Of a stretch of 64,000 nucleotides of DNA, positions 1,999 through 59,102 are shown in pieces. Source of the stretch: Cinnamomum chago (Eukaryota > Streptophyta > Magnoliopsida > Laurales > Lauraceae); the NCBI GenBank assembly GCA_038049695.1, contig CP142451.1:127724501-127788500 (forward strand). Reading direction: 5' to 3'. Below the pieces are notes generated by a model. That model saw only the letters and a list, made by a program, of their open reading frames with translations, had not been told where the DNA came from and did not search any database. Within the stretch, counting starts at the first letter, position 1; each line of letters opens with the position of its first letter. Position numbers and translations under genes: made by a program.

Positions 1999-4900
1999 TT
2001 ATGCTTGGACAACCCTGGCAATGCCAAAAGCTGCGGCAGAGGCAATGGCACCCACAAAAGCCGTCTGCAGTGCACTCCTCACCGGCCTGTTCCCCGTGAA
2101 ATGGCCCTTCACGTAGCCAAAGAAGAGTAAGGCCACAAGCGTTACAACCACCGACGTCAGCACCGCCTTTCTTGCAATTCGGATGAACATGTAAGGGACA
2201 AGGGGAACCAGACCACCCACAATGTATGCAAGCGCGATTGTAAATGCACTCTCCAACGCTCTTCTAGGATGGGGCTTCTCCAACCCCAGCTCAAACCTGC
2301 ATTAGATTATCATCTCATCAGAAAAATATGAATTTAAGGCAGAGATGATGGGGGTCTAGTATTGTTTTGGGGATTGACTCAGTGTCAAACGCAAAAATAA
2401 TTCCATCACTCTATAGTCACTGGAGAAAGTGAATCCGGTTTGCTCTGGATATGAACAATCACCGTATAAACAGAGATCGAACAGCATGAAAGCAACCTTG
2501 GTTTGATCCTTGAACGTTCCAATTATCATACAATTGTTCCCTCTGTACAAGCAAGCATTAAGATAGAAGTGTTATAAGTAACATTCAATTATTGGTGTTT
2601 CCAGTGATGAAGACCATCCATTTCTCATACAATGGACATCCATCCAAAAAACACTGCGCCTTCCAACTGATGATGATTCATAGTTAATGGTTAACAAGCA
2701 ATAATTTATCCTTGTCAACATTTTAATGGCCACCACGCAAAGATTGTACCAATTCACAATTGGACAAAGCAGTAAGTCCTAACAATAGCGTTTCTATTTC
2801 CTTTTCGTTTCTTCTTTTTATCACCATCTGTTCTCCATTTTGATTTGTTAGAACCATACAAGTCTCAAATTGATCACTTGACTTGTTTTTCTATAACTGA
2901 ACATCTTACTGGGTGGCCATGATTATCCAATTGATTGCTTTACATCCTGTTAACTACATGGCATATGAAATAAATGGTATGCATCAAATGAAAGGCATGC
3001 CCACATATCAAAATGCATCCATAAGGCACTGGAACTAATCAATGTAAACCCCAAACCCCCTGCCCCCTCACCCAAAACGCCCCGCGCACGCGCACAACAT
3101 ACACAGAACCACCCCCCACCAAACGCACGCCCCGCGCACGCACACAACACACACAAAGAAACAAAAAAGAAAAAAAAAAAGAAGAAGACAAATAGAAAGT
3201 GCAACAGACATACTTCATCATGAACTCAAGCCATGCTTTTGGATTTTTGCGAAGGGCATTCACCACTGGACCATATTCATGTGGTTCCAGACCATATTGA
3301 GAGAGTATCTCTGCAATCTCAGCTGCTTCTGTAATGTAACAAGAATCACAACATTATTACCACCATCGCTGCTGCTATTAACAAAATCAATGAAGTAAAA
3401 ATGGTTACTGCATTGCGATGTTTTTTTCTCAATTGTTCTGTGTAAAAGACCCAAGATCTTCATCTGGTGGGGGTCCTACCATTAGTTCTAGAGCATGTCA
3501 AGTGAATGTAATAAGACTAGACCAAGTCAAATTGATTGCATTGAGTTGCCTTATTCAAGTTGGGTCACAGATATTCAGATATCAACGATAAAAACAATGT
3601 CGAATTTATCTAGTTTCATAAATTTTTGACATAATTATCACAAATTTTTTTTAATATCAGCAATATTAATGACATTGTTTGAATTAATTCCTTCCTCGAA
3701 CAATTTTGATTATGAGACATTAATTTAAAAAATAAATAAGACCTGTAAGACCAGCTCCCAGATGCTACTGCCACCAACACCACCACCACATACATAGAGC
3801 AATAAAACTGCTGCTTAGTATAAGTTGTGTGCAAATTCATGTGGAGCAACAAGAGACCATGGCACAGTGGAATGTGCTCTGTGGTGGAAAGCTTATGGGT
3901 CCGTTCAAGTCATGTTCCGAATTAAAAAACAAATGGAATTTCCATTAATGGCAACAACAAAATTGGAACTATGCCCATTAATAACAATAACAAAAAGGAA
4001 AAAAAAGGAATTGCTCCCACTAACTAGAAGCCCGGATCCTCTGAGGATTTAACCTAGAGAAATCCCAAGTTAAAGATTGGATTGACTATTTGATGAAAAG
4101 TAATTTTTATGCATATTTATTATCACGTAAGCAATCAATCAAATGGTGGAACAAACTCTGATGGGCGTAAAACTTGAAAATACCTTTTATAAGACAGGCA
4201 TTTATTTCGAACGCTTTAGACTACAATTGGTGGCGCGACTGTGGAGTCACACTCCTCTTAACTCAGGATTTCTCCATGTTAAAACCTCAGAGGATCCACA
4301 TTCACAAACTAGACACGACAGTGATGGCGACAAATGACAACATGTGAACTCATGTATTCTATCTACAAAATGATATATTAGTGGAATCATGTCCATATAT
4401 ATATATATATATATATTTTCCATTTTCTAGATTCAACCTAGTGCACTTACATGCCTTATTTAATCATACATTTATTCTATTCTAAGATCAATGATACCTA
4501 TTAGATCTAGCACTAATCGTTTTATTAAAAAAAGAGCCTTTCGTCCTAATAGGGGTGACCCACCATTAAAAAGAAAAGGAAAGAAATTACCAAAGATAAA
4601 AAGATCAATCTCATCAAGGGTTATTAGCCATCCATCTGATCAAGGTAAAATGAAGACATTTGGGACCAGTGGGTCCCATCCACCCAGGGGCGGACCCACA
4701 TACATCCATGTGGGGGTGGACGCACCCATTGTACCTCCCACTTCTTAAACTATAATGAAAATTCTAACTCTACTATGAAAATCTACATAAAAATTCGGCA
4801 GCAGCCTCCAAAACGCACAAGAAAATTCAGGGTTTATTCCAAAAAACCAATTGCTTGTTACGGCATGCACCCCTCAAATGAAAATCCTAGGTCCACCACT

Positions 4901-6300: not shown

Positions 6301-9057
6301 TGTCACATCCCGGTCCCGAAATCACCCTGGCCTAGGGTAATTCCCGAGGTGTGCCACACGTACTCCCGCATGTTGTACCTGTCTCGAGCCAAACACAACA
6401 CACGAAGGAGAGAAAGTCGACTATTCCACATGTGAGAACACATAACATATCATATAGCGGAAGTCGTAATTCATTTAGATAAGGTATCAAATTCCATCAA
6501 GGTAAATTAAACATTTAAGTTTTATACAAGGAAGTAAACAAATATATACATTCAGTTTTACAAAAGAGGGATCAATAAAAGAATCCCTGTACAACCATTT
6601 CAAGAACCTATACATTCACTACCAAAAGTATGTTCAAAAGAATTTCGTATGACCATATGAAAAGGATAGTCACACGAACTATGATATTTACTATTGTAGT
6701 TCGCGCTCCGAGGAGATCAATCTAGACTGGCCCTGGTTCTGGCCACTCTTCTAGTCCTGCTGGTACCTCCTGGGTACCCTCCTCTCTCTCCTGGGCCTCT
6801 TCAGGACCGGGAGCTGTATCTGCGTCTGTGACACCAAATGTAGTATCTCAATACGACGATTTTTAGCAAGTATAAGCACAATAAGAAATTACATAATGTT
6901 GCAACTTTGAAATTTATACGAGTAAATTAGTGAAGAGTAATGATAGTATCGCTATGCAAATTGTGCTTGAATTAATCATGCTGAGGAATCAATAAATAAG
7001 AAACCATACAAATGTGGCTACTACTTAAAGCTCATCCTCTCAAAGAGAGCGAAATCTTGTTGGGATGTCACCAGCGGCCCGGCCAAAGGCTAACTGGCTA
7101 CCCGGTTCTGGAGTTCCGGTACTCCAGGCGACATACTGCAGTAGTCTCTCAAATACGAACCCAAGTGCTGGCCCCGTCGGGCGTCACAGGGTCGAAGCTA
7201 GGTAGTGCCGACTCAATCGAAATCAAACGAATCGAATAATAAGTGGACTCGAGTGAGTTTGTATTTCACATCATTTCTAAACGAATCAATTCAATCCATA
7301 TCTCATCATATCATATACTCACTCAATCCACCTTTCTCATGATTTCTGAACAAATATACCACATATAGTAAATAGTGGAGGAAATAAAGGAAATAAAGCT
7401 ATTGAATCTCAAAGGATCTGAGAAATGAAATAAACTTATTTACTTATAATGATTGAACTGTCAAATGAAAATATATTCCAATATGAAATGCAATAAGTCA
7501 AGGAGTCAATGAATCTTACTAACCATTTCTAACTACTTCTGTTAGTCTCTCACCATCCAATACAAGGTAAGTTTAGCAACCCAATGTATTACTACATTAC
7601 CAGGTGTCACCATTTATGAGAAATACATTAAGTTCCTAAACTAACCCTCAGGGCATAATGTTAGACTCATAAACATCCATTAGGCCAATTAATAAGGTTA
7701 ACGGTTCCATTTTAAGGCCATAAAGTCTCTCAAGTTCTTAATTTCCTAAGGGAATAAGGGTAGGCACCTTAAGTATCCATTTGGAACCTTTAAGGTGGGT
7801 TAAAGTAAGTTAGGGATGACAATTCACTCAAAGATTGGGGTCAAAAAGAGGTCCAATACATAGCAGTAGGTTCGCTCGAGCGGACCCCAGTTCGCTCGAG
7901 CGGACCCCTTTCCAGAGCCTTGAAGGTTCGAGCGCATTTTATTCAATCGCTCGAACGGTTGGTTCGCTCGAGCGATGTGTCCAGTTCGCTCGAGCGAACT
8001 GTCCAGAACTCTTGTTCCGGATTTCCTTTTCCTTCCATTTCTCATTTCTCTTCCTCTTACATATTCCCTCCCACTACTAAACCTGCATAAGAATGGAGCC
8101 TTCATGTTCCCATTCATCATAAAATCACAAATAATCCATCCATTCACTCCCATAAACTTGAAATCATCTAAAACATTCATTTATTAAAAACTAGGAGCAT
8201 TAAATGAATATCATGGAGTCAATGAAATAAACAAGAATGTAATCCTTAGTATGCATATACTTGCCTCTATTTTAAGCTTTTCACTTCTTATACCCTCTTT
8301 TGATGTTCCAAGCTTTAAAACCCCCAATATTTCCAACCCTAAACACAATATCCATGAAAAACTCATGAATATGAATGCATGTCTAACATAAGGTCTTTTG
8401 ACTCTAATACAACTCAAAAATCCAAACAAAAGAGTTTGGAACCTACCTCTTGTAAATGATTCCGAATTTGAAGTTGAGAAGAAAGGTTCTCTTGAAACAA
8501 GAGGTGGAGAAGATGAAGAAGAAGAGCTCCACTTATCTTCACTTGCACTTGTCAAAGCTAATTAATTTAGGGAAAGGGAGGGAATTTGAAATGAAAGAAG
8601 AGAAAAAGGAGTTCTCTCTCTCTCACTCTACAACACACACACAGCCACCAAATGAAATGAGTCAATGGGGTTTGGTGTAGGATGATAAAGATGGACATTT
8701 TGCAGGAAAGCCACTAGCTTTGTGTATTTTCAGTTTGAGTCAAACGATAGCCCAATTCCTCAACGAGCGATTAAATGAAGTAAAGTCAAATACGAAAATC
8801 GACGTGCTCAACAAGATACACGCGATGACGCCAAAATGACGTGAAAACGATGAAAAACTAGGAAATCAATAATTACGGAAAAGTCCTTGACTCAATCCAA
8901 TTGAGTCAATTCAGCTCTACTCAATTAATCAAAACTCAAGACTCGAGTTGACTCGGTCTAAGAGATTAAATTAATGATTTATAACTAAACACGATTAATT
9001 AAACTAAATCCCCATTAATTAGCATTAATGAAGATTTAATTGGGTTGGGGTGTAACA
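6301..9057. mobile_element. Solo LTR of an LTR retrotransposon (probably Ty3/gypsy)
   Basis: The 2757-bp block begins TGTCACATCC and ends GGTGTAACA, the TG...CA ends of an LTR. It is flanked by a perfect 5-bp target duplication, CTTTG, at 6296-6300 and 9058-9062. No gag, protease, reverse transcriptase or integrase similarity and no second LTR copy lies beside it. It is therefore best read as the solo LTR left after recombination between the two ends of a full element. The length and ends suggest a long-LTR gypsy-type family, but the lineage is inferred only. The intact target duplication suggests a fairly young insertion. Short reading frames inside it are not viral genes. Confidence 0.85.
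7866..8002. repeat. Cluster of CGCTCGAGCG palindromes inside the solo LTR
   Basis: At least three full CGCTCGAGCG cores and two or three degenerate half-copies lie within about 135 bp. One, AGTTCGCTCGAGCGAACT at 7983-8000, is a perfect 18-bp palindrome. Their position inside an LTR suggests transcription-factor sites or an RNA structure of the former element. The function is not known to me. Confidence 0.8.
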
Positions 9058-11710: not shown

Positions 11711-11730
11711 CCTCTGGAATAAAGTAAAAG

Positions 11731-11866
11731 TCTACGCACCCCGGGATCCTGACCCCGGACGGACCCCGGGGTGACTGGGATCCGTTGGATCCCAGAGGCG
11801 GCTGGGATCCAACGGTTCCCAGTCACCCCGGGGTCCGTCCGGGGTCAGGAACCCGGGGTGCATAGC
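11731..11866. repeat. Foldback hairpin element A (65-bp arms)
   Basis: The left arm 11731-11795 and right arm 11802-11866 are reverse complements with only about four mismatches, around a 6-bp loop. The arms are very GC-rich in an AT-rich neighbourhood. CCTCTGGAATAAA at 11711-11723 recurs as CCTCTGTAGAATAAA at 11868-11882, a possible imperfect target duplication. The sequence next to the loop, GTTGGATCCCAG, is shared with hairpin B at 40041-40169. Confidence 0.9.
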
Positions 11867-12538
11867 ACCTCTGTAGAATAAATATGTGCGATAAACTTTG
11901 GGCGCATCTGGATTTTATTTGGATTCAGGTTTGATATATTCACATGTAATTCCGGCACCCAATCCGCCATCTTGCATGCCTGATTCAGATATGTCCCAGA
12001 GTTCAAATATTTGTATGTGTGATGCAAGTTCTATACTTGTCTTCAATTTCTCATGTATTATTTTTATTTTAAATATTGACGCTTATGGGTTGACGCTTAT
12101 GGGGTTTTTTTTTTTTTTGAACATTTTTGTAGATGACGTGTCAATTACCGCCACAACACAAAGGATTGCTCCATTAGGTTTTCACCATCTGTGGAGAATT
12201 TCCAATGCTGTCTCTCTTAGGAGTTTGTGTCATGTGGCTAATTGATCATTCTCTTTGACTAGCCATTGATCATCATCTTGCTAAGCTATTGACTCATCAA
12301 CTACGAGCCTTCCTCAAATTGAGTTCTCCCTTTGCTCCTCAGCCTAATTAACATTAACAACGGTTTCGATCGTTGTTCTCCTCCCAATTAAGGATAGGTT
12401 TTTACGCATTACTCACCTGTTCTTGCTGGATTCCTTTCGGGTGTCATTTGTTATTTGACCCCAAATTGAGATGAGGCCTTTTGATATGAGAAGTTATAAT
12501 TAAGTTTTTATGATAAACAAAACTTTGTTGAGAATCTT

Positions 12539-14592: not shown

Positions 14593-14755
14593 TTGTGAGG
14601 ATTTACTCCACAGTGACCGTGAGTGGACCAATCATGATCCGCTATGTCACCGCGAGCAACTTGTCATACATCCAAGTAGGGAATGCGCTCCCACGATGAC
14701 ATGACAAACCGTGATTGGTCTACTCACGGTTACCATGGGGGAAATCCTCACATGA
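14593..14755. mobile_element. MITE with long terminal inverted repeats
   Basis: Arms of roughly 65-70 bp at about 14593-14660 and 14685-14755 pair with scattered mismatches. The left end reads TGTGAGGATTTACTCC, and the complement of the right end reads TGTGAGGATTTCCCCC. Only a short spacer lies between them, so the element is almost entirely inverted repeat. The superfamily is not clear. Confidence 0.7.
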
Positions 14756-19513: not shown

Positions 19514-20500
19514 TCATGAGATCGAGAGTCCCTCCATCTTAGCCATCAGATCCCGTTCCTTGGCCACAAACGGGTGGGCCAGAAGCTGCGCAACCGTCCA
19601 TCTCCGACTCGAGTCCTTCTGCAAGCAGCACTTGATAAAGCTCCGAAACTCATCCGACGCGGTCTCCGGCAGACTCGGCGGCTCACCGAAACAGATGGCG
19701 CACATTAGCGTCGCCCAGTCGGGTCTCTGACCCGGGGGCAAAAAGGGAAAATGCCCGATGTAAAGCTCGAGAAGGGTAAGGCCGAGGCTCCAGATGTCGC
19801 CCGCGTACCCGTTGTAGGCTCCGCCATAGGTGTCCGGGTCGAACCGCTCGGGGCTCATGTACGCGCAGGTGCCGACGAACGAGTCGCAGGCGTCGAGCGT
19901 GCGGCACATGATCTTGCTGACGCCGAAATCGGCGATCTTGATCTCCATCTTCCGATTCACGAGGAGATTCGACGGCTTGATGTCGCGGTGGACGATCTTG
20001 TGGCTGTGGAGGTAGCTGAGGCCTTCAAGCACCTGCCTCGAGATCCCGGCGAGGAAGTCCTCGGAGAAGGTGCCGGACTGGCGCCGGAGGAGGTTATCGA
20101 GCGTGCCGCAGTCCATGTACTCCATGACGAGGCCGATGTCGCCGCAGGACATCTCGAAGATGCCGTGGCAGCGGACTACGTACGGCGAGTCGGTGCGGCG
20201 GAGGATGTCCATCTCGCGGAGGATCTGGCGGCGGACGGAGGAGTCGCAGTCGGATTGGACGATTTTGAGGGCGTAGAGGGCGCCGGTGCGGCGGTGGCGG
20301 ACCTTGTAGACGGTGCCGCCGTTGCCGTGGCCGAGGACCTGGAGCTTCTCCAGATCGGAGAGGCGGTCGACGTCGGTCGGTCGGGAGGTGGTGAGGGCCG
20401 ACGGAGGGAGCGGGAGGGGGAAGCGAGGGCGGCGGTCTGCGGCGGAGTCCGGCACAGGGAGCTTCAGGTTCAGGTGTCTTCGTTCTCGGCCGACTGCCAT
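19514..20500 (-). CDS. MKK9: Group D MAP kinase kinase (MKK7/MKK9 type), intronless
   Basis: This dual-specificity kinase should phosphorylate MAP kinases (MPK3/MPK6 in Arabidopsis) in stress, ethylene and senescence signalling. From the Met at 20500 it has 328 residues, normal for the group. A basic docking site (RERRHLNLKLP, residues 5-15) precedes the catalytic domain, which has GHGNGGTVY (57-65), Lys79, HRDIKPSN (171-178), DFG (191-193), the plant activation loop T201-x5-S207 and SPE (216-218). FGEPPSLPE and RWTVAQLLAHPF close the domain. All catalytic residues are present. A longer reading frame runs upstream to 20689, but a TATA box at 20600-20606 lies inside that extension and MAVGRERR matches the family start, so 20500 is chosen. 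The gene is much richer in GC than its surroundings. MKK7 versus MKK9 cannot be decided. Confidence 0.95.
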   Translation of the reverse strand: MAVGRERRHLNLKLPVPDSAADRRPRFPLPLPPSALTTSRPTDVDRLSDLEKLQVLGHGNGGTVYKVRHRRTGALYALKIVQSDCDSSVRRQILREMDILRRTDSPYVVRCHGIFEMSCGDIGLVMEYMDCGTLDNLLRRQSGTFSEDFLAGISRQVLEGLSYLHSHKIVHRDIKPSNLLVNRKMEIKIADFGVSKIMCRTLDACDSFVGTCAYMSPERFDPDTYGGAYNGYAGDIWSLGLTLLELYIGHFPFLPPGQRPDWATLMCAICFGEPPSLPETASDEFRSFIKCCLQKDSSRRWTVAQLLAHPFVAKERDLMAKMEGLSIS

Positions 20501-20599
20501 TTCTTTGATGGTTTTTCTCTGATAGAGAGAGAGATGAAGAGAAGAAGTTTTTTTTTTTTTATTTGATCCTTCTGGAGAAGAAGTTGGAGTGAGAGATGG

Positions 20600-20606
20600 T
20601 TTTATA
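20600..20606 (-). promoter_or_regulatory. TATA box of the MAPKK gene
   Basis: TATAAAA on the minus strand lies about 100 bp upstream of the chosen start codon. It implies a leader of roughly 65-75 bases and rules out the upstream in-frame Met at 20689. Confidence 0.65.
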
Positions 20607-21337
20607 AGGAGGGAGAGACGGCTGGGGCAAGAGACAGGTGGAGAAGAGACAGATGAGGGAAGCAGCATGGAGGGTGTGATGGGGCCCACATGGGAGGGAT
20701 TATATTTATTTTAATGAACGGGTGGATGAGTGTGAGTAGTGTAGATTTAAGTAGTGAGAACAATTAAAGATTGATGGTGACATTTCCAATGCCGAAAATG
20801 GGCCTGGCTCTATTTTGCTGGGAAAATTTTAAAAAAAGGGCTCTCAAGTTTTTAGAGAGTTTGCAAAATAGAGTAAAAAGAGAGTTTGTTTTAAAGATAG
20901 ACATGTTACTTTGCTGGAATTTAAAGAAATTTTATTTGGGGGATTTATAAAATTTTAAATATAGTGAAATTTATGGATGCCCTTTTATATAGTTGAGCAT
21001 GCTGGGGATAACCAACTTTAAGTTTTTCGGATTTCTTTCAAATCAAACATCTAATGGTGCCCTCTTTCTTTAAATACTCAAATTGCTCTTATAATCCCTT
21101 AATCAAATCTCCTCCCAATGTCCCACATTTGTCCATTTTTTTTCTTTTCCATTATTTTTCTTTCCTTCCATTCTTTCACTAGCACCTATCTAAAACACTA
21201 TACCTACCAATACAAGCACACAAGTATAAAAGACAAAAAATAGTGTGAGAGATGTTATTTAGGAGTTGTAATAAGGCTTCCTAATTTAGAGATTTGGGTG
21301 GTTTGTAATTTTGAGTTGGGAAATGAACACTAATTGG

Positions 21338-32444: not shown

Positions 32445-32773
32445 GGTTTTTGCATACACCCCCCTAAGGTTTTTAGGATTAGTAAATAAGCCCCTATAGT
32501 TTGATAATTGTATATAGCCCTCTTCCTTTTCATTTTAATACCTTATATGTCCCAAAATTACTAGCCTTACAGCCACCATGAATTTAAGGGCAACGTTGTC
32601 ATTTAAAAAAAATCAGCACAAATCTTTTGGTGGTCGCCTATTCTTGTTATGTCTAGTAAATTTGGAGAAATGGAAGGTATTAAAATGAAAAAACAGGGGG
32701 TATATGCAAATACTGAAACCACATGGCCCTCTTTACAAAGTCTATAAACCCTAGGGGGTTACATACAAAAAAC
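32445..32773. mobile_element. MITE with terminal inverted repeats of about 40 bp
   Basis: The left end (GTTTTTGCATACACCCCCC) and the complement of the right end (GTTTTTTGTATGTAACCCCC) match with a few differences and continue as AAGGTTTTTAGGA / AGGGTTTATAGAC. The interior has no coding capacity. The superfamily is uncertain; Mutator-like is possible because of the long ends. Confidence 0.7.
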
Positions 32774-36500: not shown

Positions 36501-36900
36501 GGGTGAATTGCTTAAATGTAAGATACTGTGATGGTTAGAAAGATCAAAGATTATTACTTAATTATGACCCAAAACAGTCACCCTGTCTTTCTTTTTGTTG
36601 GACATGAGCTGGAACGACACTCTTATCATCCAAAGGACACAATTTGCTTGTGCTTAGAATGGATGCGTTACTATTCACCCTCTGGCACAGTCGCACTGCA
36701 TTCATATCCTTTCCAACAATAGAGTGTTTTTCTCTTATCTCTTTCTTCTCACTTTCAAAATTGGTGGTTTGCCAGTTGCTGCTGGCCCACCTTTCCAACG
36801 ACCCAGATTTCATCATGCGAGAGGGCACGCACGAAATTGTGCTCCCTCAACGTTTCAGGGCGGGAAAGGGAAGATGATCCCTTGTTTCGTCCAAACATGG
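33550..36900. other. Gene-poor stretch with decayed repeats
   Basis: No conserved coding segment was recognised. The stretch holds an AT microsatellite (near 34230), GC-richer decayed hAT-like MITEs (34509-34720 and 35055-35366) and a partial copy of the GGGCACGTTTGTGT-ended MITE family (about 35560-35790). Confidence 0.4.
35055..35366. mobile_element. Probable decayed hAT-type MITE
   Basis: The ends TAGGGATTTTCATG and AATGAACACCCCTA are imperfect inverted repeats resembling the element at 12539-12900. The flanking 8-mers do not match, so the target duplication is lost or the limits are slightly off. Confidence 0.5.
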
Positions 36901-36902
36901 GA

Positions 36903-37025
36903 GTCCTGTTTGGATGAATCAGGGGCCGCCACATGCGGGGGCGGAATAGGGACGGAGAAAAGAAAAAGGTAATTTCTCTTTCCTCCACCCCGCACGTAGA
37001 GGCCTCTGATTCATCCAAACAGGGA
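36903..37025. repeat. Foldback repeat upstream of the PLATZ gene
   Basis: The left arm 36903-36946 (CCTGTTTGGATGAATCAGGG) and right arm about 36981-37025 pair with scattered mismatches around a 34-bp spacer. It lies about 0.2-0.5 kb upstream of the PLATZ coding sequence and so probably in its promoter region. It does not share the core of hairpins A and B. Confidence 0.7.
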
Positions 37026-37526
37026 TCCCCTGATCCGCGGGAAATATGCGCTCGTTTGGAATCGGACGACGCGCCTCGAATGAAACGGACCTAGGGTTTC
37101 TAAATCCCGAGGCAGAGAGAGAGAGAGTTGCATCCGACGGCTCGTACAACGGCGAAGATTCTCAACACCATTTTAAGCAGTGAAATTGCGAAAATAAAAT
37201 CCAGCCGTCCATTTCCTCATCAAATGGCTGGGATTGTTTCATGCCCACCCTGAAATCACTGAAAATGTGAGAGGAAAAAATATAAAACGGAAGTTTGAGG
37301 ATCTTTTCTTCTCCACTCTTATTTTGTTCTGCAGGGAGATACTATACTGCTATTATAAGTATCTCTCTGCAAGAATACAGAGAAATGGTGGTCTCTCTAT
37401 CTCTTCCACTCCTTTTACAATTGGGTTTCATTTCGATTGGATTTTTAGTTCAATTCAAATTCTTAGTATGAACTTTGAAGTTTTCTGAGAATCTCAATTT
37501 GAATTGAAATTGGATTCCTTTTGCAG

Positions 37527-38457
37527 GTGAGATTGGAATTGAAGCATAGCACTAATAAATACCCGGAATGGCTTGATTTACTACTGCAAAGCAAGTTCTT
37601 TAGGCCGTGTTTGAATTTGAATCATGAAGAATTGAGAAAGGGTGAGATTAATGTATTCTGTATTGATTGTAAAGTCTGCCTCTGCCAACACTGCCTTGCA
37701 ACCCCTCTGCATTCAGGTCATAAACAATTGCAGATCCGGAGATACATGTACAGAGATGTTGTTAAGATTGATGACATGGAAAAGCTCATGAGTTGCTCTC
37801 GTGTCATGGTTTGTGATTGGATTTTTTTTTTTGCTTTTAGATTTAGATTTACTTCACAGATGATCTTTTAAAAAAAAATAAAAAAATTCTTAGTCTTTTT
37901 TCTAATAAATTATGTTTTTGGATTGATTTGTTTCTTAGCCATATACTCTCAATGGTGCCAAAGTGATACTCTTGAATCCGCGACCTCAAGGAGCTAAACC
38001 AACAACAAAATCGAATGAAACTGGACCCAATTGCATGAGGTGTGAAAGAATGCTAGTGGAGCCAAATCACTATTGCTCCATTGCATGCAAGGTGAAACAC
38101 AATCAAATTTGATTAAGTCAGTAATGATCAAAATTTATGGGTTTTTTTTTTTTTTTTTTGTGATTATTTATTGTGAATTTGAAATTTGTTTGATTTGGAA
38201 ATATGCAGGTTTTGTATGAGAGTGAGAATAATGGATGTGATACTTTCGAATTGTCTCAAATAATGGAGATGGAGGTGGAGGTGGAGAAGGAGAATAAGAA
38301 TGCTGAGTTGTTCTCACCCACCGACTCAGTTCACTCAAATGAGAACAACAACTCATTCAATAACTTGGATGAGTATAATTCGCCTTTCAAATTGAATTTG
38401 AAGCACAAGATGATGCACAAGAGGAAAGGAGTTCCTCGTAGGTCACCTTTCTTCTGA
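37527..38457 (+). CDS. PLATZ zinc-binding transcription factor (first exon unresolved)
   Basis: PLATZ proteins are plant-specific nuclear proteins that bind A/T-rich DNA and usually repress transcription. Recognised exons are 37527-37808, 37939-38091 and 38209-38457 (stop TGA), all in phase 0 with GT-AG introns. The first carries EWLDLLLQSKFFRPC, then a Cys/His cluster (FCIDC, CLCQHC, HSGH) and the basic strand QIRRYMYRDVVKI. The second has C-x2-C-x10-C-x3-C (CMRC...CSIAC). The last exon encodes an acidic, Asn-rich tail ending RRSPFF, close to the usual family C-terminus. There is no Met at 37527, and TTTTGCAG precedes it, so a short upstream exon must supply the start. ATGGCTGGGATT at 37224-37235 is one weak candidate. 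The family assignment is firm, the 5' end is not. Confidence 0.9.
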
Positions 38458-40018
38458 ATGCACAAGATAGATTATTCTCTGGAATGGGGTTTGGTTTGTT
38501 TGGATTTTGTTTTCTTTCTGTATTTTGTTTGTAGCCATTGATTTTCTCTTAATATCTGTCCATCGAAAGTGGGGTTTTGGTTGCGCCTGAGTGGCCAACA
38601 AAAGGAGACTTGTATGGCCAACAAATGTTCTTAAATTTTTAATATATATTTATTTTTGACCCGAGCTTAGTACGGGCGTTTGTTGCTAGTATCTTAATAA
38701 TATTAACAATATCTTTACTATTACTAACGATATTTCTAAGTTTTTCCCATGTTTCCACCTTTCGTTATTATCAAGATGGTCCTTAACTGTTAGATTTTAA
38801 TAAGAAATTAGAGAAAAGGGTTTTCTAATACCACTTTTAGAGGGAATCCAATTACACTCCCAAATCGAAACTTTATCCTCATTACCAACATCATATGTTA
38901 TTATAAATAAAGCCCACCGCCTCTACAAAACTTTTCAATTACAATTAGTTTTAATCTTTCCATTCAATCTCCCATAAAGGAATTTGTTTACAACTTTGGA
39001 ACAAAGTTCGTTCCAAATTTCCAACACATCTTTGGTTGGGAGAGCCAAATTTTGTATTATTTGAATCTCTTGTACCCTCAATCCTCTTGGCGAGTCCATA
39101 TCATTCATACCAGTGGGCCTATTGTTTTCTTAAAGATCTCCCAAATGTGATCCCATCTATGATGCATGGATACGGCAAAGATATGTCATAGACACGGTGG
39201 GACACGGATTTTACACGTAAAAGGTTAAGTATCATACACGATACATTGCCCGTTTCGAAATATCCGTGCATCTTAGGATCCCATTGCTCCATTTTGGACC
39301 CTTTTGTGAACCTTGCTGCATTAGCAGCATGACTACTTGGATGTTTTTGGGTCCCCATCAGTGGTGGAACACATCCTTTCATGCACAGCACAGGACGGAA
39401 AAGCTGGTAGCATGGCATAAGATATTGCAGGGCCACAATAGTTCTTTACACAATAATTTAAACTGATCGACATCTTGTGAGGTGGGCACTTTATCTATTT
39501 ACCTGTATATGGATATAATGGGACCATATCAAGTCAACTAACTGGACTACTGAGCCATATGCCCAAATGTAAAAAGGTGGGCATGCATCTCTCCAAAGTG
39601 TGAACTGTGCAGTTGCTGAGGCTTAGGAGTCACGACCCTGTAATGGGACACCTGTACGGTACTTCTTTCCACAATCTTCCAATCTACGTAATTCTTTGTA
39701 AGAAGAAGTTATGGGTTTAAGTGGGTTCGGTTATGATGCAAAGAGGCTTATGGTTGTGTTTGGTTAGGGGCACGGGTCATAATGGAAAAAGGCTGGCTCG
39801 AAGTGGGTTTTGTTTGTGAATGGTGAAGATGAATGGAGAAGAAAGAGGTGGGTTTGTTGGTCGTGTGAATGGTGTGATGGATTTTTTTCTTTTATAAATG
39901 AGTTCAAGTTGTGATTGTAGAGAATACTAGCCAAGTGTACTTTTCAGAATGGATGGTTGAGATATCTTTTATCTTCTATGCTTTCTCATGTTGGTCCCAA
40001 TTAAAAAATTGTTATGCA
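38458..40018. other. Downstream of PLATZ, no gene recognised
   Basis: The first few hundred bases should be the PLATZ 3' untranslated region. The rest has no recognised protein or RNA gene; short reading frames near 39119-39466 overlap on both strands and look random. Confidence 0.4.
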
Positions 40019-40040
40019 TTTTACAAAGGGCAATGCTACA

Positions 40041-40169
40041 TGGACCGAAAATGGGGACCGGCTGGTGGCCCGGTCCCCAAGGGGATCGTTGGATCCCAGG
40101 ACAGCCTGGCCTGGGATCCAACGATCCCCTTGGGGACCGGGCCACCAGCCGGTCCCCATTTTCGGTCCA
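40041..40169. repeat. Foldback hairpin element B (perfect 60-bp arms)
   Basis: The left arm 40041-40100 and right arm 40110-40169 are exact reverse complements over 60 bp, with a 9-bp loop. TTTTACAAA occurs at 40019-40027 and again at 40183-40191, a possible 9-bp target duplication, which would put the whole element at 40028-40182. Bases beside the loop (CGTTGGATCCCAG) match hairpin A. The arms are GC-rich. Reading frames crossing it on both strands are by-products of the palindrome. Confidence 0.93.
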
Positions 40170-40191
40170 AGAAGACTTTTCGTTTTACAAA

Positions 40192-43163
40192 ACTCTACAA
40201 TGAAAAGAAAAACTTCACTCCTCAGATGCACACCATATGTTTGAAGAAATGTCTGTGTAATTATTCTAATACATTGTTGTAAATGTAGAATATATCAGTG
40301 TCTTTCATGGTGTCATATTCTCATTGATTTTGGATGCTATTGGTTGAAGACTCCAAGTTCCCATTTAATGGTGTTGCAAATGTAACTCTCAAAAGTTTAC
40401 AAGTTATACCATGTAACTGTAGAACACGGTGAATAAGGATGGATATAAACCTACTGAAAGGAGTCTATTCCTTTTACAATGCATTTTGTAAAACACAGAA
40501 TCCGTCTAACGTTGACAAGAAATTTGTCTACAAAATTTGTCGATATCAACATAAAAAATTTATCGACAGCAACATAAACATATATTGACGTCAACATAAA
40601 CAGTCACTTAGGAGTTTAATTTGCACTCTCCACAGAACATAGGTCATTCCGTAAAACACATTTTTTATCGACGCCAACAAAAAATTTGTCGACGTCAACA
40701 TAAACATATATGCAGAAAAGGAGTATGAAAAAGGGGAAAAAAAAGGGGGGGGCAGGGGCGGGGGGGGGGGGGGGCTGGCTATTTCTATCTTAGGATTTTG
40801 TTGATATCAACAAACTCAGGGGCAAAAGGGGAATGGAATAATGGAATTTGGGCAGGAGGTCCTTGGCTGATATAATAAAAGTTTGGGGACCTTAGCGGTG
40901 GTTACTTTAATTAGTGAAATTTTCTAGGTAAATGTCCCTATTTAAAAATTATAAAAATTATAAAAAAAAAGAAAAAAACTAACTATAGTCTGGATGTCCC
41001 CCAAATCTCAATTGGTTCGTATACTCTGGTAGAATGAATGATTATTGGTCCCCCAGCTGGCTAGTGGTTCGGACATGGTGGCGGTGTGGAATATCAGTGC
41101 CTTCTGGCAACCAGGAGATCAGACACCATACAAGATGGAACACCGAGGTTATTTACAAAATCTTCAATATTTCATTCTGAGTTGTATCAAGTCAAACACA
41201 TGCAACTAGTCTGTCAGAGTGTAGGGAGGTCACTGTGGATGGACTCCCACATTCATCATACCACCGTAGGATCGATCCGTGGGCAGGGGAGGGCTCTGTG
41301 GTCTGTTAGACGTGAGTGGTCCTCATGACCACATGTGCAACACTATTGGGACCCACGGTTTGAGCCCACTAAGTTAAGATACTTTCCCCTTTTCGTTTTT
41401 TATTTTACTAAGTTTATCTTGGATTCAATTTTAGTAAGACCAAGTCATATAGAACTCTTAGTGGCTAATTTGAGAGAATTAAGGAAACTTACTTTTATTA
41501 GATTTCTTTAATGGGAAGAAATATCTCTAGGGCTTATCTATATATATGGTTTTCCGGCACGCATATTGGAGTGGGTGACAACGGAGATAGGAGAAAACCC
41601 TATTTGAGAAAAGAGTTCCGCTCATCATCAAGATCATGGCGCAAGGTACGCTTTTATTATTTGAGATTATATATTGTTTAATGCATAAATCTAGATCCAT
41701 AGGTTTGATTTATATTGCAAATCATATTAGATATTACATGGTCAACTAAAGTATATTCATCACTCAGAAATGTGTACAGACATCAGCTGGCATCTTCATT
41801 GGATCAGTAACAATAAAGGAAACCAGCAATATCACCGTATTATGCCAGACTATGAAGGTTTTCCTTGCTCACTCGTTTGATTACACGGCTTTTGATCTCA
41901 GCAAAATTATTTGACACCAACAGAGCGAGTAACGCATTGTTATGAGCAACTATGCAGGTAGATAAAGTGATTGCCTGCGATAACAAAATAAACGAATGCA
42001 GAAGCATGGCAAGCTAAGGAAAAAAAAAAAAAATGTTAAATACCTATGACAATAGATATAAAATTTAAATGAAAATTCTGTCAGGCAGTTCCAGAGGCCG
42101 TGTGCAGCAGAATTGTCTGATTTGGGCTGTTTTATTGTGTTGGCATCTGGGGTTACTCTTTTACAGGCAACAGGTGGGTATTTAAAGCTGTTGCTCTGAA
42201 TTGCATCAGATATTGAGGCATTTCACGATGCTGTTATTGCATTTCATGGTGGGTATTTCATGATGCTGTTGTTGCATTTAATTTCACCCTTGCAAATTTG
42301 CAGTTTTACTGAGGCCCCTTGAGAGGACAATCCTTGTATTCTCATTTTTATGCTTTTGATCATTTAATATGATTTTGTCCATGCACAGAAGACAGATTTC
42401 AAGTGCCTCCTTTACATATATGTGGGTCCCATTTCTGATAAGACTGTTGATCTGATGGGTCCTATTAGGATGGGGTTTGCATCAAAATCTCCCAGATCTG
42501 GAGGTTCTAATCCTTTTCTTGTGCTAATGTTTTTTGTCTTTTCATTCTTGTATTCTTTAAGAAATGTATATTGTGGGACATTGTGATTTCAAATCCCCTG
42601 TTCCTTTTATCACATTGATTGGAGGCTCAGGCTAAACTAACATGACAATGTCAGTCATTACATCTCTCATTTTCCCCATTTAACGTCACCCATTAACCAT
42701 CTTCTGTCTGTTGACATCCATTTGATGAGTGTCTTGTGGCCTGAATAGTTTGGGGGTGGCGAGGGGGTGGGCATCTTTCTAGCAAATTTGCATTTTACAT
42801 GTCCAATCAGATGTCCATTCATTCATACAAAGTTGGATATCTGCTTTCGTTTACCTTTCCCCTGCTTTATATATCAATTTCTTCTTCCTTTTTTCATAGT
42901 TCATATGAGAGCTAAATGATTTAGAATGAGATTGCAAAATGTTCAATAGCCAAAAAAATCTCACCTTGGTGTCACACAAAGTTCCATAAGAAGAAGATCT
43001 CCAAATCTCAAGCAACAACACTTATATCTGGTACCAAAACAATGTCACTGTTGGGCATAAATGCATATATCTGACAACAACCAATTCCAAACAAAATCTA
43101 ACAGAACCTGAATAAATGAAACCAATTTACAATTTGAATCCTCTGCCATTACATGAATCCAAC
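40192..43163. other. Gene-poor stretch with small repeats
   Basis: It contains scattered GTCGACGTCAACATAAA-like repeats (40505-40720), a run of about 16 G (40760-40775), and an LTR-leader-like segment with a splice-donor-like motif near 41638. The segment 42080-42400 looks less repetitive and might be a gene remnant. No complete gene was recognised. Confidence 0.4.
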
Positions 43164-48300: not shown

Positions 48301-49810
48301 AATCTTTAGTTGTTCTTTTGAAGACCTAATACCCCTTATAGAACAATTCTTGTTGAGGAGAAAAAAAAAAGAAGTCCAATGTAGGAGGAATCAAAGAGGA
48401 ATAAGTCTGTTCTAGGTTTTAAAAACTCAGGTCCATATCTTCAGTCTGTGTTTTTCCACCCTAATACCAACTCCAAATAGACAGAATAGGGCTACCGTGA
48501 TTATGATTTTTCATCTAAATGAATGTTCATATTAGATGATTTTCTCTTTGGATGCAAAATACCCCAACCTGCAATTCCAACTGCTGACAACTGACCCACA
48601 CGCCCCTCTGGGAACAACTAGATTCCAGACACTTCAAACCTTTTTGCACTAGTTTTTCAATTCTGACACCACCATCAATAGCTGTAGTTTCATCAAAGTG
48701 CTAGTTTTGTAAAGATTTTCACGGAAGGTAAGATGATGATGCTGATGCTGATGATGAGAAGGGCCTTTTGTTTTTCTGAGTCGGCCCAGTGGCCAGGAGA
48801 GGGAAGTTTAAACCACCCTGCCAGGGATGCAGGGGCTATGGGAGCGGGTGTTGCTATCCACAGCAATACCCTGTGATTCCCTGTGCTATGTGAGCAGGGG
48901 CTATGGCAGAGGCCCTTGTGTTTCTATTAACAATCACAAAGTACAATTACATGAATACTCTTGGAAAAGGGTTTAAAGAAAGAATGAATACAAGGGCAAT
49001 CTGGGAATGCCTGATTTATATGTAGTTATCTAGAGGGATTCTGATTTAAGATCATGTTTGATGAGAGGCCCTTGTATTTATATTAATAATCACAAAGTAC
49101 AATTACAAGAACACTCTTGGAAAAGGGTTTAAAGAAAGAATGAATACAAGGGCAATCTGGGAATGCCTGATTTATATGTAGTTATCTAGAGGGATTCTGA
49201 TTTAAGATCATGTTCCTTAGGTGGACTAAATTGGTTCCCTCTTCACGCTTGTATGTTATAGAAGGAATCCAATCTTGGTCGTATTTTGTTCCTTTTTAGT
49301 TTTGCATGACTTGACGCAACTTTGGTGGAGCTGCTCACTGTGTTCTCTTGCTGTGGGATGCATCTTGCATTTGATGAGACTCAGTTCTGGCGGTGATTGA
49401 ATTGGACACCATAACTGGGATTTTGATATTTCTTGTATTTATGTATTTGTTTTTTTATCCCCTTTTCTAGTTGGTAACTAATGCTGTTAATTGCTGTTTC
49501 TGATTTGGTTAAACCATGAATTGGGTCCCATGTCCCATCTACCACTGCCATGTGCTCACAATGTTTTAAGATTCTCTGCAGATTTACAAAGCTCAAAGGA
49601 ATGTAATTCTCTGCATTGCTGCCTGCCTTCTCTATTGGTGAGTACTTGGCATCTTCAATTGGCAGGAATACCAGATGTGGTAGAACTCTCCAACTTCCAT
49701 GCTTAGAATACACTGTGTACTGTTCATGCAGGTTTGCCTATCGCATTTGCAAGTATTACAAGGATATTCAGGATTTGGAAGAAACTGAGAAGAGGTTCAA
49801 GAGCATATAG
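45319..49810 (+). CDS. BAP29/BAP31-like ER membrane protein, four exons
   Basis: The protein resembles the membrane domain of B-cell receptor-associated protein 31, an ER protein that in animals helps sort membrane cargo; the short plant version is little studied. Exons are 45319-45490, 45580-45662, 49582-49637 and 49732-49810 (stop TAG), with GT-AG introns and matching phases, giving 129 residues. Three hydrophobic segments lie around residues 5-25, 40-58 and 91-105, with a conserved loop between the last two (DIYWKNEHRLMC and ERDRYEKSIYKAQRN). The tail is RICKYYKDIQDLEETEKRF, a short charged helix. The long coiled coil of animal BAP31 is absent, as in the plant family. The start is the first Met, in a purine-rich context. 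Intron 2 is 3.9 kb and holds repeats and a Tourist-like copy. Confidence 0.9.
46040..46255. mobile_element. Tourist-like MITE, copy 3 (partial) in BAP-like intron 2
   Basis: The interior (GAATTACTAGGGTGATAG, GTATTCATTTCTCATCATCC) matches the copies at 22697-23036 and 30161-30411. The terminal repeats could not be placed; a GGTGCGTTTGGATG motif at 45713 might be an outer end. Confidence 0.55.
46550..48900. other. Middle of BAP-like intron 2: decayed repeat sequence
   Basis: Read on the minus strand, 46560-47450 gives broken stretches of protein-like sequence (for example KHFEQGSVVQQGDCVEFF and EGREGGKAVVFIIEGRNKK) interrupted by stops, suggesting an old LINE or captured gene. GC-rich transposon-like pieces lie at 47710-47800 and 48140-48260. 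No intact gene is seen. Confidence 0.35.
48910..49214. repeat. Tandem duplication of about 150 bp in BAP-like intron 2
   Basis: The unit starting GGCCCTTGTGTTTCTATTAA (48911) recurs at 49067 with few differences and ends at the same ATTTAAGATCATGTT block. The two units lie 156 bp apart. It is well away from the splice sites. Confidence 0.9.
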
Positions 49811-52971: not shown

Positions 52972-55183
52972 AATTCGGCGAAGAGTCCCTTAACATTTCA
53001 CTTTAGTGCCTTAGGTCCACAATCTTTTTTCATATTGTAATAGGTCATTTTTTCAAATTTGAAGACCTAAAATGTCTAATTTACCCTTCATTCAAAATCA
53101 TTAATAATGGTCAACTACCATTTAATTAACCAAATAAATTTCAAAATATCCAAATAAATTTCAAAAAATGTAAATACATTTCAAAAGACGAAAATAAATT
53201 TCAAAATACGTAAATAAAATTAAAAAAAGAAAATAAATCTGAAAAATACAAATAAATTCGAAAGAACGCAAATAAATTTGTAAATAAATTTCAAAAGATG
53301 AAAATAAATTTCAAAGTACTCAAATAAATTTCAAAATACACAAATAAAAATAAAAAATGAAAATAAATTTTCGAAAGAAAGCAAATAAATCTTAAAAAAA
53401 CAATAATTTCAAAAAACGCATTAAATTTCAAAATAACACAGAGAAATTTAAAAAGATGCAAATAAATTTCAAAAGATCCAAATAAATTTCAAAAAATGTA
53501 AGTAAATTTCAAAAACGAAAATAAATTTAAAAAAAACGCAAACACATTTGCCAAAACTAAGATAATTTTTTTTCCTAATTTCATAAAAATTTGCCAAAAA
53601 CTCAAGTATTTTTGTCAAAACTCAATTAAATTTATTTCAAAAAATGTAAATAAATTTCAAAAGAACAGCCTGAGTTTAGTTCAAAAACTCATTTAAAATT
53701 TGTCAAATTGAGATAAATTTGTCAAAAACTCTTCTATATTTTTAAAAAACTCAAATAAATTTGCTCCATGACTCAGATAAATTTGTTCCAAGACTCAGAT
53801 AAATTAGCCAAAAACTCAAATAGATTTGTCTAGAACCCAGAGAAATTTGTTTCAGAACTCAGATAAATTTGTGCAAAACTCAAATACATTTGACAAAAAA
53901 TGAAAAACTCAGATAAATTTGACAGAAACTCATATAAATTTGTAAAAACTCAGATAAATTTAATAAAAACTTAGATAAATCTCACAAAAACTCCATGTCC
54001 TCCACCTCCTCTTCCATCCCTCTGGCATCCTCCCCAAATCGAGACCGACAGGACATGCACCAACCCGAGACCTGACCTGCTTACTGTTCTGGCGTGCTTA
54101 CTTGCCTATTTACTATTCTGGATCTGGGCTCCGGGTCGAACCTGACATGAACCGACCCGAGACCTAGGACACCCAAGATAGATCGTCGACAAAGCCAGAA
54201 AATCGCGCAGGGCCCATCGCTTTTCTTCTTCTTCTCCGGTGGGTAGGACTTCTGCCAGGAACCACTTTCCCGACGACGTGCACCAACTGTGATGGGAGAC
54301 AGCGGGCAGCGATTCTGGGATGCAATGGGCGGTGATTTTGCAATTTCCGGAGCTAGATTTATTTCCTCATTGACTGGGTTCCGACACAGAACCTGAAACG
54401 CCCCTGCTACCCTTTGTCGATGTGCAGCAGAGCTGATCAAGGTGGGTCCCCCGCGCCAGATCTGATCGACAACAGTGAAACAGAACAGAGGAATCAAATT
54501 CGTTCTGTTATCTAGTTTTGGAGAAACCAAAAGTAGAGACGCACAGAGGATCCAGACATCGAACAGAGGTTTGATCCTTTGTTGCAAAGGCCTTCACATC
54601 GCTTGAAGTGAAGGAGAAGAAGGGTTCTATACCCAGTTGCACGCTATCGGAGAAGAAAGGGGTGTTGCCGTGCCCGACCGCCGCTTCCTCCAGTAGTCAC
54701 AGAGAAGACGAAACAGAGAACCGACATCTTGTCCAAGTTGAAACCGCCCACACAGGACCCATCCCAGAAACGATGGGTTTCTCGCCTACACATCCGATAG
54801 TGGGTCCCACTCATCAGGAACCCATGATCAGGCCCACCAACAAGGTCGCACATGGCCTCCCAACAAGATCAATGGTCCAGATTTCCATTGGTCGGCCACC
54901 TGAACCCCACAGTCTCCCTCTTTGGTTGCTGGATGGTGGATTGCACCTGAGAGAGGATGAGATGAAATATGGGTTGAAGAAGAAGAGGGATAATACAAGA
55001 TTTGAAATTTGAAATTTCAAAATTTTATGCCTAAAATGGTTGAAAGGGTAAATCAGTTGTGAGAATTGTATTCAGTGACCTCTGCCTACAAACAATCTAA
55101 CTGTTTGGACCAGAGCCCTTAAAAAGAATTTGTCTGGACTGGAGGCCGAAAACATTCAATTATAGGGACCTTTGGCTAATTAT
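52972..55183. mobile_element. TIR-bounded non-autonomous DNA transposon carrying a minisatellite
   Basis: The left end reads AATTCGGCGAAGAGTCCCTT; the complement of the right end reads AATTAGCCAAAGGTCCCTAT, and further blocks (GCC..., GGTCCA) pair beyond these. About 1 kb of degenerate 20-bp repeats, then a GC-richer 1-kb core, lie between. The A-rich flanks hide any target duplication. The core contains overlapping reading frames on both strands that are not kept in the duplicate, so no transposase is claimed. The right end is repeated at about 58100 through the tandem duplication. Confidence 0.55.
53100..53990. repeat. Degenerate 20-bp minisatellite (unit 1)
   Basis: Repeats of the form AAATAAATTTCAAAANAYG run at a period of about 20 bp and change gradually rightward into ACTCAGATAAATTTGNCAAA. 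About 40 units are present, with no long exact run. The left half of the array is shortened in the duplicate at 56190-56855. Confidence 0.85.
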
Positions 55184-56183: not shown

Positions 56184-59102
56184 TATTTAAAAAATATAAA
56201 TAAATTTCAAAAGATGAAAATCAATTTAAAAAGACGCAAATAAATTTCAAAATATCCAAATAAAATTTTAAAAATATAAATAAATTTCAAAAGATCCAAA
56301 TAAATTTCAAAAAATGTAAGTAAATTTCAAAAACGCAAATAAATTTAAAAAAAAAACGCAAACACATTTGCCAAAACTAAGATAATTTTTTTTCATAATT
56401 TCAGAAAAATTTGCCAAAAACTCAAGTATTTTTGCCAAAACTCAGTTAAATTTATTTAAAAAATGTAAATAAATTTCAAAAGAATAGCCTGAGTTTAGTT
56501 CAAAAACTCATTTAAAATTTTCCAAATGGAGATAAATTTGTCAGAAACTCAACTATATTTTTAAAAAACTCAAATAAACTTGCCAAAAACTCAAATAGAT
56601 TTGCTCCAAGACTCGGATAAATTTGTTCCAAAACTCAAATAAATTAGCCAAAAACTCAAATAGATTTGTCCAGAACTTAGAGAAATTTGTTTTAGAACTC
56701 AGAGAAATTTGTGCAAAACTCAAATACATTTGACAAAAAATGAAAAACTTAGATAAATTTGACAGAAACTCATATAAATTTGTACAAACTCAGATAAATT
56801 TGATAAAAACTTAGATAAATTTCACAAAAACTCAGATAAATTTCATAAAAACTCCATGTCCTCCACCGCCTCTTCCATCCCTCTGGCATCCTCCCCAAAT
56901 CGAGACCGGCAGGACGTGCACCAACCCGAGACCTAACCTGCTTATTGTTCTGGCGTACTTACCGGCTTGTTTACTATTCTAGATCTGGGCTCCGGGTCGA
57001 ACCTGACATGAACCGACCCGAGACCTGGGACACCCAAGATGGGTCATCTTCTTCCTTTCTTCAACGACCCTGCTCTGGAACAAAGCCAGAAAATCGCGCA
57101 AGGCCCATCGCTGCCTTTTCTTCTTCTTCTCCGGTGGGTTGGACTTCCGCCAGGAACCACTTTCCCGACGACGTGCACCAACTGTGATGGGAGACAGCGG
57201 GCAGTGATTCTAGGATTCAATGGACGGTGATTCTACAATTTCCGGAACTAAATTTATTTCCTCATTGACTGGGTTCCGACATAGAACCTGAAACGCCCCT
57301 GCTACCCTTTGTCGATGTGCAGCAGAGCTGATCAAGGTGGGTCCCCCGCGCCAGATCTGATCGACGGTAGTGAAATAGAACAGAGGAATCAAATTCGTTC
57401 CGTTATTTAGTTTTGGAGAAACCAAAAGTAGAGACGCACAGAGGATCCAGACATTGAACAGAGGTTTGATCCTTTGTTGCAAAGGCCTTCACATCACCTG
57501 AAGTGAAGGAGAAGAAGGGTTCTATACCCAATTGCACGCTATCGGAGAAAAAAGGGGTGTTGCCGCGCCCGACCGCCACTTCCTCCGGTAGCCACAGAGA
57601 AGACGAAATAGAAAACCGACATCTTGTCCAAGTTGAAACCGCCCACACAGAACCCATCCCAGAAACGATGGGTTTCTCGCCTACACATCCAATAGTGGGT
57701 CCCACTGATCAGGAACCCATGATCAGTCCCACCAACAAGGTCGCCCATGGCCTCTCAACAAGATCAATGGTCCAGATTTCCATTGGTCGGCCACCTGAAC
57801 CCCATAGTCTCCCTCTTTAGTTGCTGGATGGTGGATTGCGCCTGAGAGAGGATGAGATGAAATATGGGTTGAAGAAGAAGAGGGATAATACAAGATTTGA
57901 AATTTGAAATTTGAAATTTCAAAATTCAAAATTCAAAATTTTATGCCTAAAATGGTTGAAAGGGTAAATCAGTCGTGAGAATTGTATCCAGAGACTTCTG
58001 CCTGCAAACAATTTAGCTGCTTGGACCAGAGCCCTTAAAAAGAATTTGTCTGAACTGGAGGCCAGAAACATTCAATTATAGGGACCTTTGGCTAATTATC
58101 TATTAAAAAAAAAAAAAAAACAATGCCTCATGCCTACACCTTCTAGAAGCAAGTGAATTCATCAAATTTCTTTCTAGAGGAAGGAAGATTGGGTGAAAAT
58201 ATCTTTGATGGGACTTTCATTTGCATCAAAGAAAATCCGGTTTAAGAAATGTACTCGAGAAAACAAAACGTTTGACTTGGGTTACTCGGTTTGACTGAAC
58301 CATACTTCCTCATCATATAGGCCAATAGGTGGCTAAGCCAAGAGAACCACTTATAGTAAGGTGATTGGATGGGGAAGATATAGGCTAGTTCCTAGTATCA
58401 ATTAAGTTGATGGATTTAAGAGTACGGATCTTCTTCACATTGCTTGATCATGTGCAGCCATAATTCAGAAGAAGCCGTGGTCGTTCCAGGATATGAAAGC
58501 ATGAAAATCATGGGGTTAATAGTTTGAATGGTCCCCCATGACCTACTAATTTTGTGCAAGAGATGGACCATCTCATCTTAAGTTTCTAACCATTCAATAT
58601 TTTGTTGATTGATGCTAGATTTGGATGATTAATTCAAAGGTCTACAGAAGAATTATGCAGAATGGGGGTTGGGAACTTTGAAGGTTTTAGATTGCCAATA
58701 GGGTGGGTAATGGGCCCCTTTACCCTCCACCCTCTTATTCAGCAGTATCTTTAAATTGCAAAATTTTCACCCTAAAAATGGAGTCCTTTATAAGAGAAAT
58801 CGATGCAGAAATGTCCATCATCCCTAACAAATGCGGGGCCACTGCATTAAAGGCTCTAACTATAAATTGGGACCCTCTTGGAAAGGTTACGCCTGTTGCT
58901 CCACCAGAAAGCGTGACAATTATAGGGATTTAAGAGTTTGAAAGGGTCTCCCTATAACCCAAATAATGCGAAGAGAAGAAAACACATATTTTGAGGGCTT
59001 CAATGACGTCCAAATCCTATCTATTAAATATAGTTTTATGAAAGCAAAATTTTACATAATGATCAATTGAAGGGCCCATAAAGCTCAGAAGGGTCGACAC
59101 TA
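56184..59102. repeat. Tandem segmental duplication, unit 2 (about 2.9 kb)
   Basis: This is a near-identical second unit. Visible differences include an extra segment of about 30 bp around 57040-57085 and a shortened minisatellite (56190-56855). Reading frames in unit 1 are interrupted or truncated here, which argues that neither copy is protein-coding. The unit stops about 0.4 kb before the 3' end of the U-box gene. Confidence 0.88.

Follow-up and report, generated by a model that had tools for sequence, protein, structure and literature searches.

Two inverted copies of a putative foldback element with a common core and dissimilar arms in a 64-kb sequence

Genomic setting of the hairpins

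The window, by which we mean the whole 64-kb stretch of DNA that was analysed, has a GC content of 38.6% and a CpG ratio of 0.53. Pfam comparison covered three frames of the window, with a protein kinase match in the frame at 19514-20710 (-) and matches to the U-box and the plant U-box ARM repeat region in the frame at 59516-61009 (-). Because of these kinase and plant U-box frames, the window is most likely plant nuclear DNA. The frame at 37503-37871 had sub-threshold Pfam scores for both PLATZ (20.9 bits, cut-off 25) and B-box zinc-finger (20.3 bits, cut-off 24.1) domains, and may represent an exon from a plant gene for a transcription factor. A tRNA scan found nothing in the window, and a search for distant plasmids with the kinase-gene region as the query gave no match.

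An earlier note on this DNA had described two foldback hairpins, A at 11731-11866 and B at 40041-40169. Both are present, and these coordinates span the hairpins. Among the matches listed (the best 25 of 72 pairs), A and B are the two longest inverted repeats within 300 bases. The arms of A pair at 57 of 59 positions (11737-11795 with 11802-11860) on either side of a 6 nt dyad spacer (11796-11801). In B, all 60 positions pair (40041-40100 with 40110-40169), and a 9 nt stretch at the dyad (40101-40109) lies between these perfect 60 bp arms.

A common core beside the loop

According to the same note, A and B have one sequence before the loop and its complement after it, and this is what we observed: GTTGGATCCCAG occurs once per arm in both hairpins, at 11784-11795 and 40088-40099 on the forward strand and at 11802-11813 and 40111-40122 on the reverse strand. 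With up to one mismatch allowed, the window holds no occurrence beyond those four sites. Shuffles of the window gave a mean of 0.35 matches, and four matches were reached in none of 100 shuffles.

The core common to A and B is really 18-19 nt long, GGGATC[C]GTTGGATCCCAG, with one single-base gap. In A it reads GGGATCCGTTGGATCCCAG (11777-11795, +), which forms an inner hairpin, and its complementary copy (11802-11820, -) carries one difference, at 11816. The loop-side core of B, delimited by core match counts and alignment, reads GGGATCGTTGGATCCCAG (40082-40099, +) and has an exact complementary copy at 40111-40128 (-). When both arms were shuffled with dinucleotides preserved, the local alignment score of the core was matched by about 0.1% of 3,000 shuffles (p ~0.001), a test that takes no account of the register of the core beside the loop, which is the same in A and B.

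A few of the 3,000 shuffles did attain the core score, as they might if A and B were unrelated hairpins and the core match a coincidence, and chance matches are raised because the core is built on the GGATCC palindrome in GC-rich arms. We nevertheless find such a coincidence scarcely credible, since the core p-value is joined by the equal register at the loop and by the related termini and 9 bp repeats described below.

Arms alike within each hairpin and unlike between hairpins

Between the core and the terminus lies a variable arm of 40 nt in A (11737-11776, +) and 41 nt in B (40041-40081, +). The complementary arm of A (11821-11860, -) has one difference, at 11851, and that of B (40129-40169, -) is exact. 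Similarity between A and B breaks off abruptly where the core ends. The two arms outside it have an ungapped identity of 15/41 (p 0.20), gapped alignment gives p 0.87, and the A arm against the reverse complement of the B arm gives p 0.26; in the A-to-B arm alignments, the A arm is a 41 nt slice that includes one core base. The arms have no 6-mer in common on either strand, against an average of 4.7 in shuffles. As arm similarity is at the shuffle level and no 6-mer is common, the contrast drawn in the earlier note, with arms that differ between elements and are complementary within each (57/59 and 60/60), holds for A and B.

Each half-element folds as two smaller hairpins, the inner one made by the core and the outer one by the arm. 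The inner core hairpin is CTGGGATCC-GTT-GGATCCCAG in A and GGGATC-GTTG-GATCCC in B. In the outer arm hairpin, CACCCCGGG pairs with CCCGGGGTG in A and GGGGACCGG with CCGGTCCCC in B; by self k-mers and fold, the nested foldback of the arm is built on ACCCCGG in A and on GGACCG/CGGTCC in B. Compared with dinucleotide shuffles, the fold energy of the half-element was reached by 0 of 500 shuffles for A and with p 0.002 for B, and that of the arm taken by itself gave p 0.01 for A and p 0.004 for B. Self-repetition of the arm, scored as direct or inverted words, gave p 0.001 for 6-mers, 0.001 for 7-mers and 0.006 for 5-mers in A; the values for B were 0.003 for 6-mers, 0.012 for 7-mers and only 0.053 for 5-mers. 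The arm plan is common to A and B and the arm letters are not, each element having a motif peculiar to itself.

Nine-base repeats and asymmetric termini at the borders

For the borders, we searched for 9-mers equidistant from the dyad of each hairpin, at about 60-90 nt. B has the same 9 bp target-site repeat, TTTTACAAA, on its left (40019-40027) and right (40183-40191), a 9/9 match, and A has TGGAATAAA on its left (11715-11723) and TAGAATAAA on its right (11874-11882), an 8/9 match. Random dyads, of which 20,000 were placed in the window, gave at least 8/9 in 1.4% of cases and 9/9 in 0.24%, hence random-dyad P values of 0.014 for A and 0.0024 for B. Without the symmetry condition, the longest word common to the 30 nt flanks is 7 for A, which 7.8% of 4,000 random places equal, and 9 for B, which 1.75% of 4,000 equal. 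The flanks of A also have CCTCTG in common just outside the 9 bp repeats. The borders of A are therefore less sure than those of B, and the duplication there may be longer and contain an indel (CCTCTGGAATAAA / CCTCTGTAGAATAAA).

Inside the 9 bp repeats we distinguished 13 nt termini of two types. Type alpha comprises the left terminus of A, GTAAAAGTCTACG (11724-11736, +), and the right terminus of B, CGAAAAGTCTTCT in inward reading (40170-40182, -), which match in register at 9/13 when the latter is reverse complemented and both contain AAAAGTCT. Type beta comprises the right terminus of A, CAGAGGTGCTATG in inward reading (11861-11873, -), and the left terminus of B, GGGCAATGCTACA (40028-40040, +), with a weak match of 6/13 in register and TGCTA in both. 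The match sum of 15 between A and inverted B has p 0.0019 with either pairing of the ends allowed; the alternative pairing gives 7/13 and 4/13. On the two strands of the window, AAAAGTCTNC is found solely in the right terminus of B (40170-40182) and at 11726. The two ends of one element match poorly (5/13 in A, 7/14 in B), unlike ordinary terminal inverted repeats, and the termini are therefore asymmetric, in the same way in A and B.

The elements inferred from these borders, each with its hairpin at the centre, are A at 11724-11873 (150 bp) and B at 40028-40182 (155 bp), plus the 9 bp repeats. As short inverted-repeat elements bounded by dyad-equidistant 9 bp repeats, A and B have the build of miniature inverted-repeat transposable elements (MITEs) or foldback elements. 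In the frame listing, which served as the coding check, a 126-codon stop-free frame (39902-40282, +) traverses B. The proposal in the earlier note that A and B are one family gains support from the core (p ~0.001), the in-register termini (p 0.0019) and the 9 bp repeats equidistant from the dyad. Insertion, a common family and the nested foldback are all supported by what we observed, from two copies seen in opposite orientation within 64 kb. All conclusions on A and B rest on these two copies within the window. The tests were chosen with the sequence already known, and the p-values carry no correction for this. An assembly artefact was thought unlikely, given that two separate loci have the core, related termini and duplication length in common.

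The folds predicted for A and B are very stable, at -148.2 kcal/mol for the 201 nt around A and -152.7 kcal/mol for the 201 nt around B, as might suit a small-RNA precursor or structured transcript whose arms are kept complementary by selection on the RNA hairpin, through ordinary compensatory mutation. This explanation is very improbable in our estimate: the window has no Rfam match at gathering scores, perfect pairing of unrelated arms would require many compensated changes, and the 9 bp duplications signal inserted DNA.

Paired differences between the arms of A

The arms of A contain only two mismatches, at 11746 and 11781. Both sites read GGATCC in the left arm, and in the right arm, in the same reading direction, they read GGTTCC and GGAACC. 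Within one arm, a 6 bp helix joins positions 11746 and 11781 as a base pair, and the two differences together preserve that pair. The chance that two random arm substitutions hit and keep such a pair is 0.007 (helices of at least 6 bp, 38 pairs). Because B carries T at the second site, the sequences suggest that A changed in its right arm. In the predicted fold, the change in A removes one base pair from the inner core hairpin of the changed arm, a loss that selection for the inner core hairpin would not favour.

The earlier note had further held that, if A and B belong to one family, changes in one arm must have been copied to the other. The mismatch pair of A is as expected from such copying; it suggests a fit to nested-repeat copying better than to independent decay, from one event that was spotted post hoc, and arm copying as a process is likewise suggested by this one pair of changes. 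The arms may descend from one ancestral arm through mutation and copying, but the abrupt core edge also fits replaced modules or a one-time inverted duplication and is as compatible with module replacement as with gradual copying. We infer that the arm difference between A and B was produced by arm copying.

The sharp end of A-B similarity at the core edge would equally be expected if A and B belonged to the same mobile family and each palindrome had been made once, by fold-back or inverted-duplication synthesis or by capture of an arm module, with young copies and no rewriting. Both copies do look young: B has perfect arms and two identical 9 bp repeats, and A has two arm mismatches and one repeat mismatch. 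Such one-off formation sits poorly with the two differences in A, which together keep a base pair within one arm (p 0.007), and with the nearly equal arm lengths (40 and 41 nt) and the nested-hairpin plan in both elements, which are unexpected from capture of random DNA. We consider it unlikely, while giving it real weight.

A candidate foldback MITE with putative copying of arm changes

The reading that we prefer, with a probability of roughly 0.6, is that A and inverted B are insertions of one non-autonomous foldback MITE, likely with a Mutator-like mobiliser, in which arm changes are copied within the hairpin. The plan of such an element would be a 9 bp duplication, an asymmetric 13 nt terminus, a variable arm of about 40 nt, the 18-19 nt core and a short spacer, followed by the mirror image. 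A Mutator-like transposase encoded elsewhere in the genome would recognise the termini and mobilise the element. Target duplications of 9 bp are typical for Mutator-like elements in the available text of PMC4486113, and the roughly 9 bp duplication expected of a Mutator-like element (MULE) is seen in A (8/9) and B (9/9). The 9 bp length of the target duplication makes a Mutator-like mobiliser likely and is the sole trait by which we make this link. No autonomous partner and no empty site came to light, the Pfam comparison having covered three frames.

Once single-stranded, the palindrome would fold, and template switching within the hairpin could carry a change over from one arm, or from one repeat of an arm, to the partner. 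The arms would then drift or be replaced as a unit with complementarity retained, and the termini and core would remain similar because they are constrained. Template switching is described as creating stems and restoring their pairing in one event (accessible portion of PMC8794818), and individuals of a nematomorph were found to differ by paired changes in their palindrome arms (accessible portion of PMC6649704).

A more far-reaching possibility, which we put forward tentatively and with more doubt than belief, is a self-templating transposon family. Its termini and core would be fixed and its arms free, as nested-hairpin copying spreads changes, so that copies could come to have unrelated arms without loss of the fold. 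If arms are rewritten as a unit, each copy would carry paired mutations of readable order and tract length, and the elements would serve as a natural archive of template switching in a plant genome. In that case, homology-based repeat annotation may miss such elements, because most of the element length would have no sequence in common between copies; structure, duplication and termini would be the best guides to them.

Comparison with known elements

REPINs are two small palindromes in inverted arrangement that make a larger hairpin; they are bacterial REP pairs moved by a RAYT and are not known to make a target duplication on insertion. We rejected membership of A and B in this class, as both have 9 bp duplications and the window has a plant U-box gene. 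We also set aside mitochondrial double-hairpin elements, a similar idea, since the window looks nuclear from its kinase and plant U-box frames and the duplications indicate a DNA transposon.

Tm1, a Mutator/Foldback element of root-knot nematodes, consists, in the part of PMC3169594 that is available, of a 9 bp duplication followed in order by 7 bp outer motifs that are asymmetric, GGA, arms that are repetitive and variable in length, and a conserved inner motif. A and B show the same plan of a 9 bp target duplication, asymmetric outer motifs just inside it, repetitive arms that vary between elements and a conserved inner motif near the centre-side end of the arm. They resemble Tm1 also in the short GGA motif after the outer motifs, and Tm1 has MITE-like members (PMC3169594). 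In the same text, the arms of Tm1 differ by how many copies of one tandem motif they hold, and the two ends of an element may be of unequal length; A and B each have two equal arms with near-perfect complementarity, and it is the motif of the arm that changes from one element to the other. The Tm1 elements described there measure about 1 kb and have further sequence separating the arms, and a third class is typically less than about 0.5 kb, as far as the available text goes (PMC3169594). The printed Tm1 motifs are absent from A and B, where the best ungapped matches are 5/7 in both for A1, 5/7 in both for A2, 9/15 and 8/15 for C, and 8/12 and 9/12 for D.

MuTAnT, a Mutator-like element of Medicago truncatula, is like A and B a plant foldback with a strong hairpin and a 9 nt target duplication (PMC4486113, available text). 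There, 90% of copies are 200-300 bp, and the first one described has almost identical modular 144 bp arms with four similar segments. Unlike A and B, MuTAnT inserts into TA microsatellites and its subfamilies have consensus sequences, and arms unrelated between copies are not among the features described in that text (PMC4486113). The flanks of A and B, taken as 40 bases on each side, contain no TA run of at least three units.

Galileo of Drosophila mojavensis resembles A and B in that each copy has arms with 98-100% identity to one another and the terminal inverted repeats (TIRs) differ between subfamilies. Exchange and conversion among arms, and conversion among copies, have been proposed for it (PMC3573991, in its accessible sections). 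It differs in belonging to the P-element superfamily, in arms of hundreds of bp and in the transposase sequence of some copies (PMC3573991). The mitochondrial coding palindromes of Nematomorpha are, like A and B, mostly perfect inverted repeats, with arms that evolve in concert and template switching as the proposed cause; unlike A and B, they are mitochondrial, lie within coding genes and are not described as mobile elements in the accessible portion of PMC6649704. FARE and Tnr8 are cited or mentioned in the available texts of PMC3169594 and PMC4486113.

As to the undescribed foldback family proposed in the earlier note, a foldback with a 9 bp duplication and modular or variable arms is an already described kind, as far as the available texts of PMC3169594 and PMC4486113 go (Tm1, MuTAnT); the kind of element is known because Tm1, MuTAnT and Galileo have been described. 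The literature in reach of our search, which has most subscription journals outside it, yielded in its accessible texts no family with dissimilar arms but similar core and termini. Searches there gave nine papers with a core string and two with a terminus string, none of which seems, from the text available, to concern such an element.

Patterns of the core pair had 0 matches in a viral collection and 0 in prokaryote genomes; these collections hold no plant genomes, so the result is little informative. Looser core patterns matched 13 and 11 viral stretches, and all 24 were examined. In the 30 positions beyond the match on each side, 4-11 were complementary in 22 of the 24 stretches, and 14 and 16 in the rest. 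We judged these stretches to be chance palindromes, not copies, because none has long arms.

Other repeats in the window

The window contains several further repeats. At 7870-8006, a cluster of GC-rich short palindromic repeats lies in AT-rich surroundings, with CGCTCGAGCG present four times (7873, 7893, 7965 and 7987); its sequence is different from that of hairpins A and B. A foldback at 14594-14752 has 59 nt arms of 78% complementarity, a 41 nt spacer and ends TGTGAGGATTT/AAATCCTCACA, and may be another MITE. The inverted repeats at 36896-37032 (45 nt arms, 84%) and 32518-32700 (42 nt arms, 79%) are MITE candidates. In the tested range, a search for direct repeats of 7-11 bp in the flanks found none for the foldback at 14594-14752 or for either of these inverted repeats. 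An inverted repeat at 4034-4297, starting with GGATCC, has 40 nt arms (88%); just outside it, CACTAACTAGA / CACAAACTAGA (10/11) may form a direct repeat of 11 bp.

A direct duplication about 2.9 kb apart, 53383-55096 and 56198-58012, aligns in two blocks, 53383-54179 with 56198-57040 at 88% and 54189-55096 with 57080-58012 at 93% (query end 55100), and consists partly of AT-rich tandem arrays of 20-21 bp. At 48908-49214, a 156 bp unit is present in two tandem copies with 96% matches.
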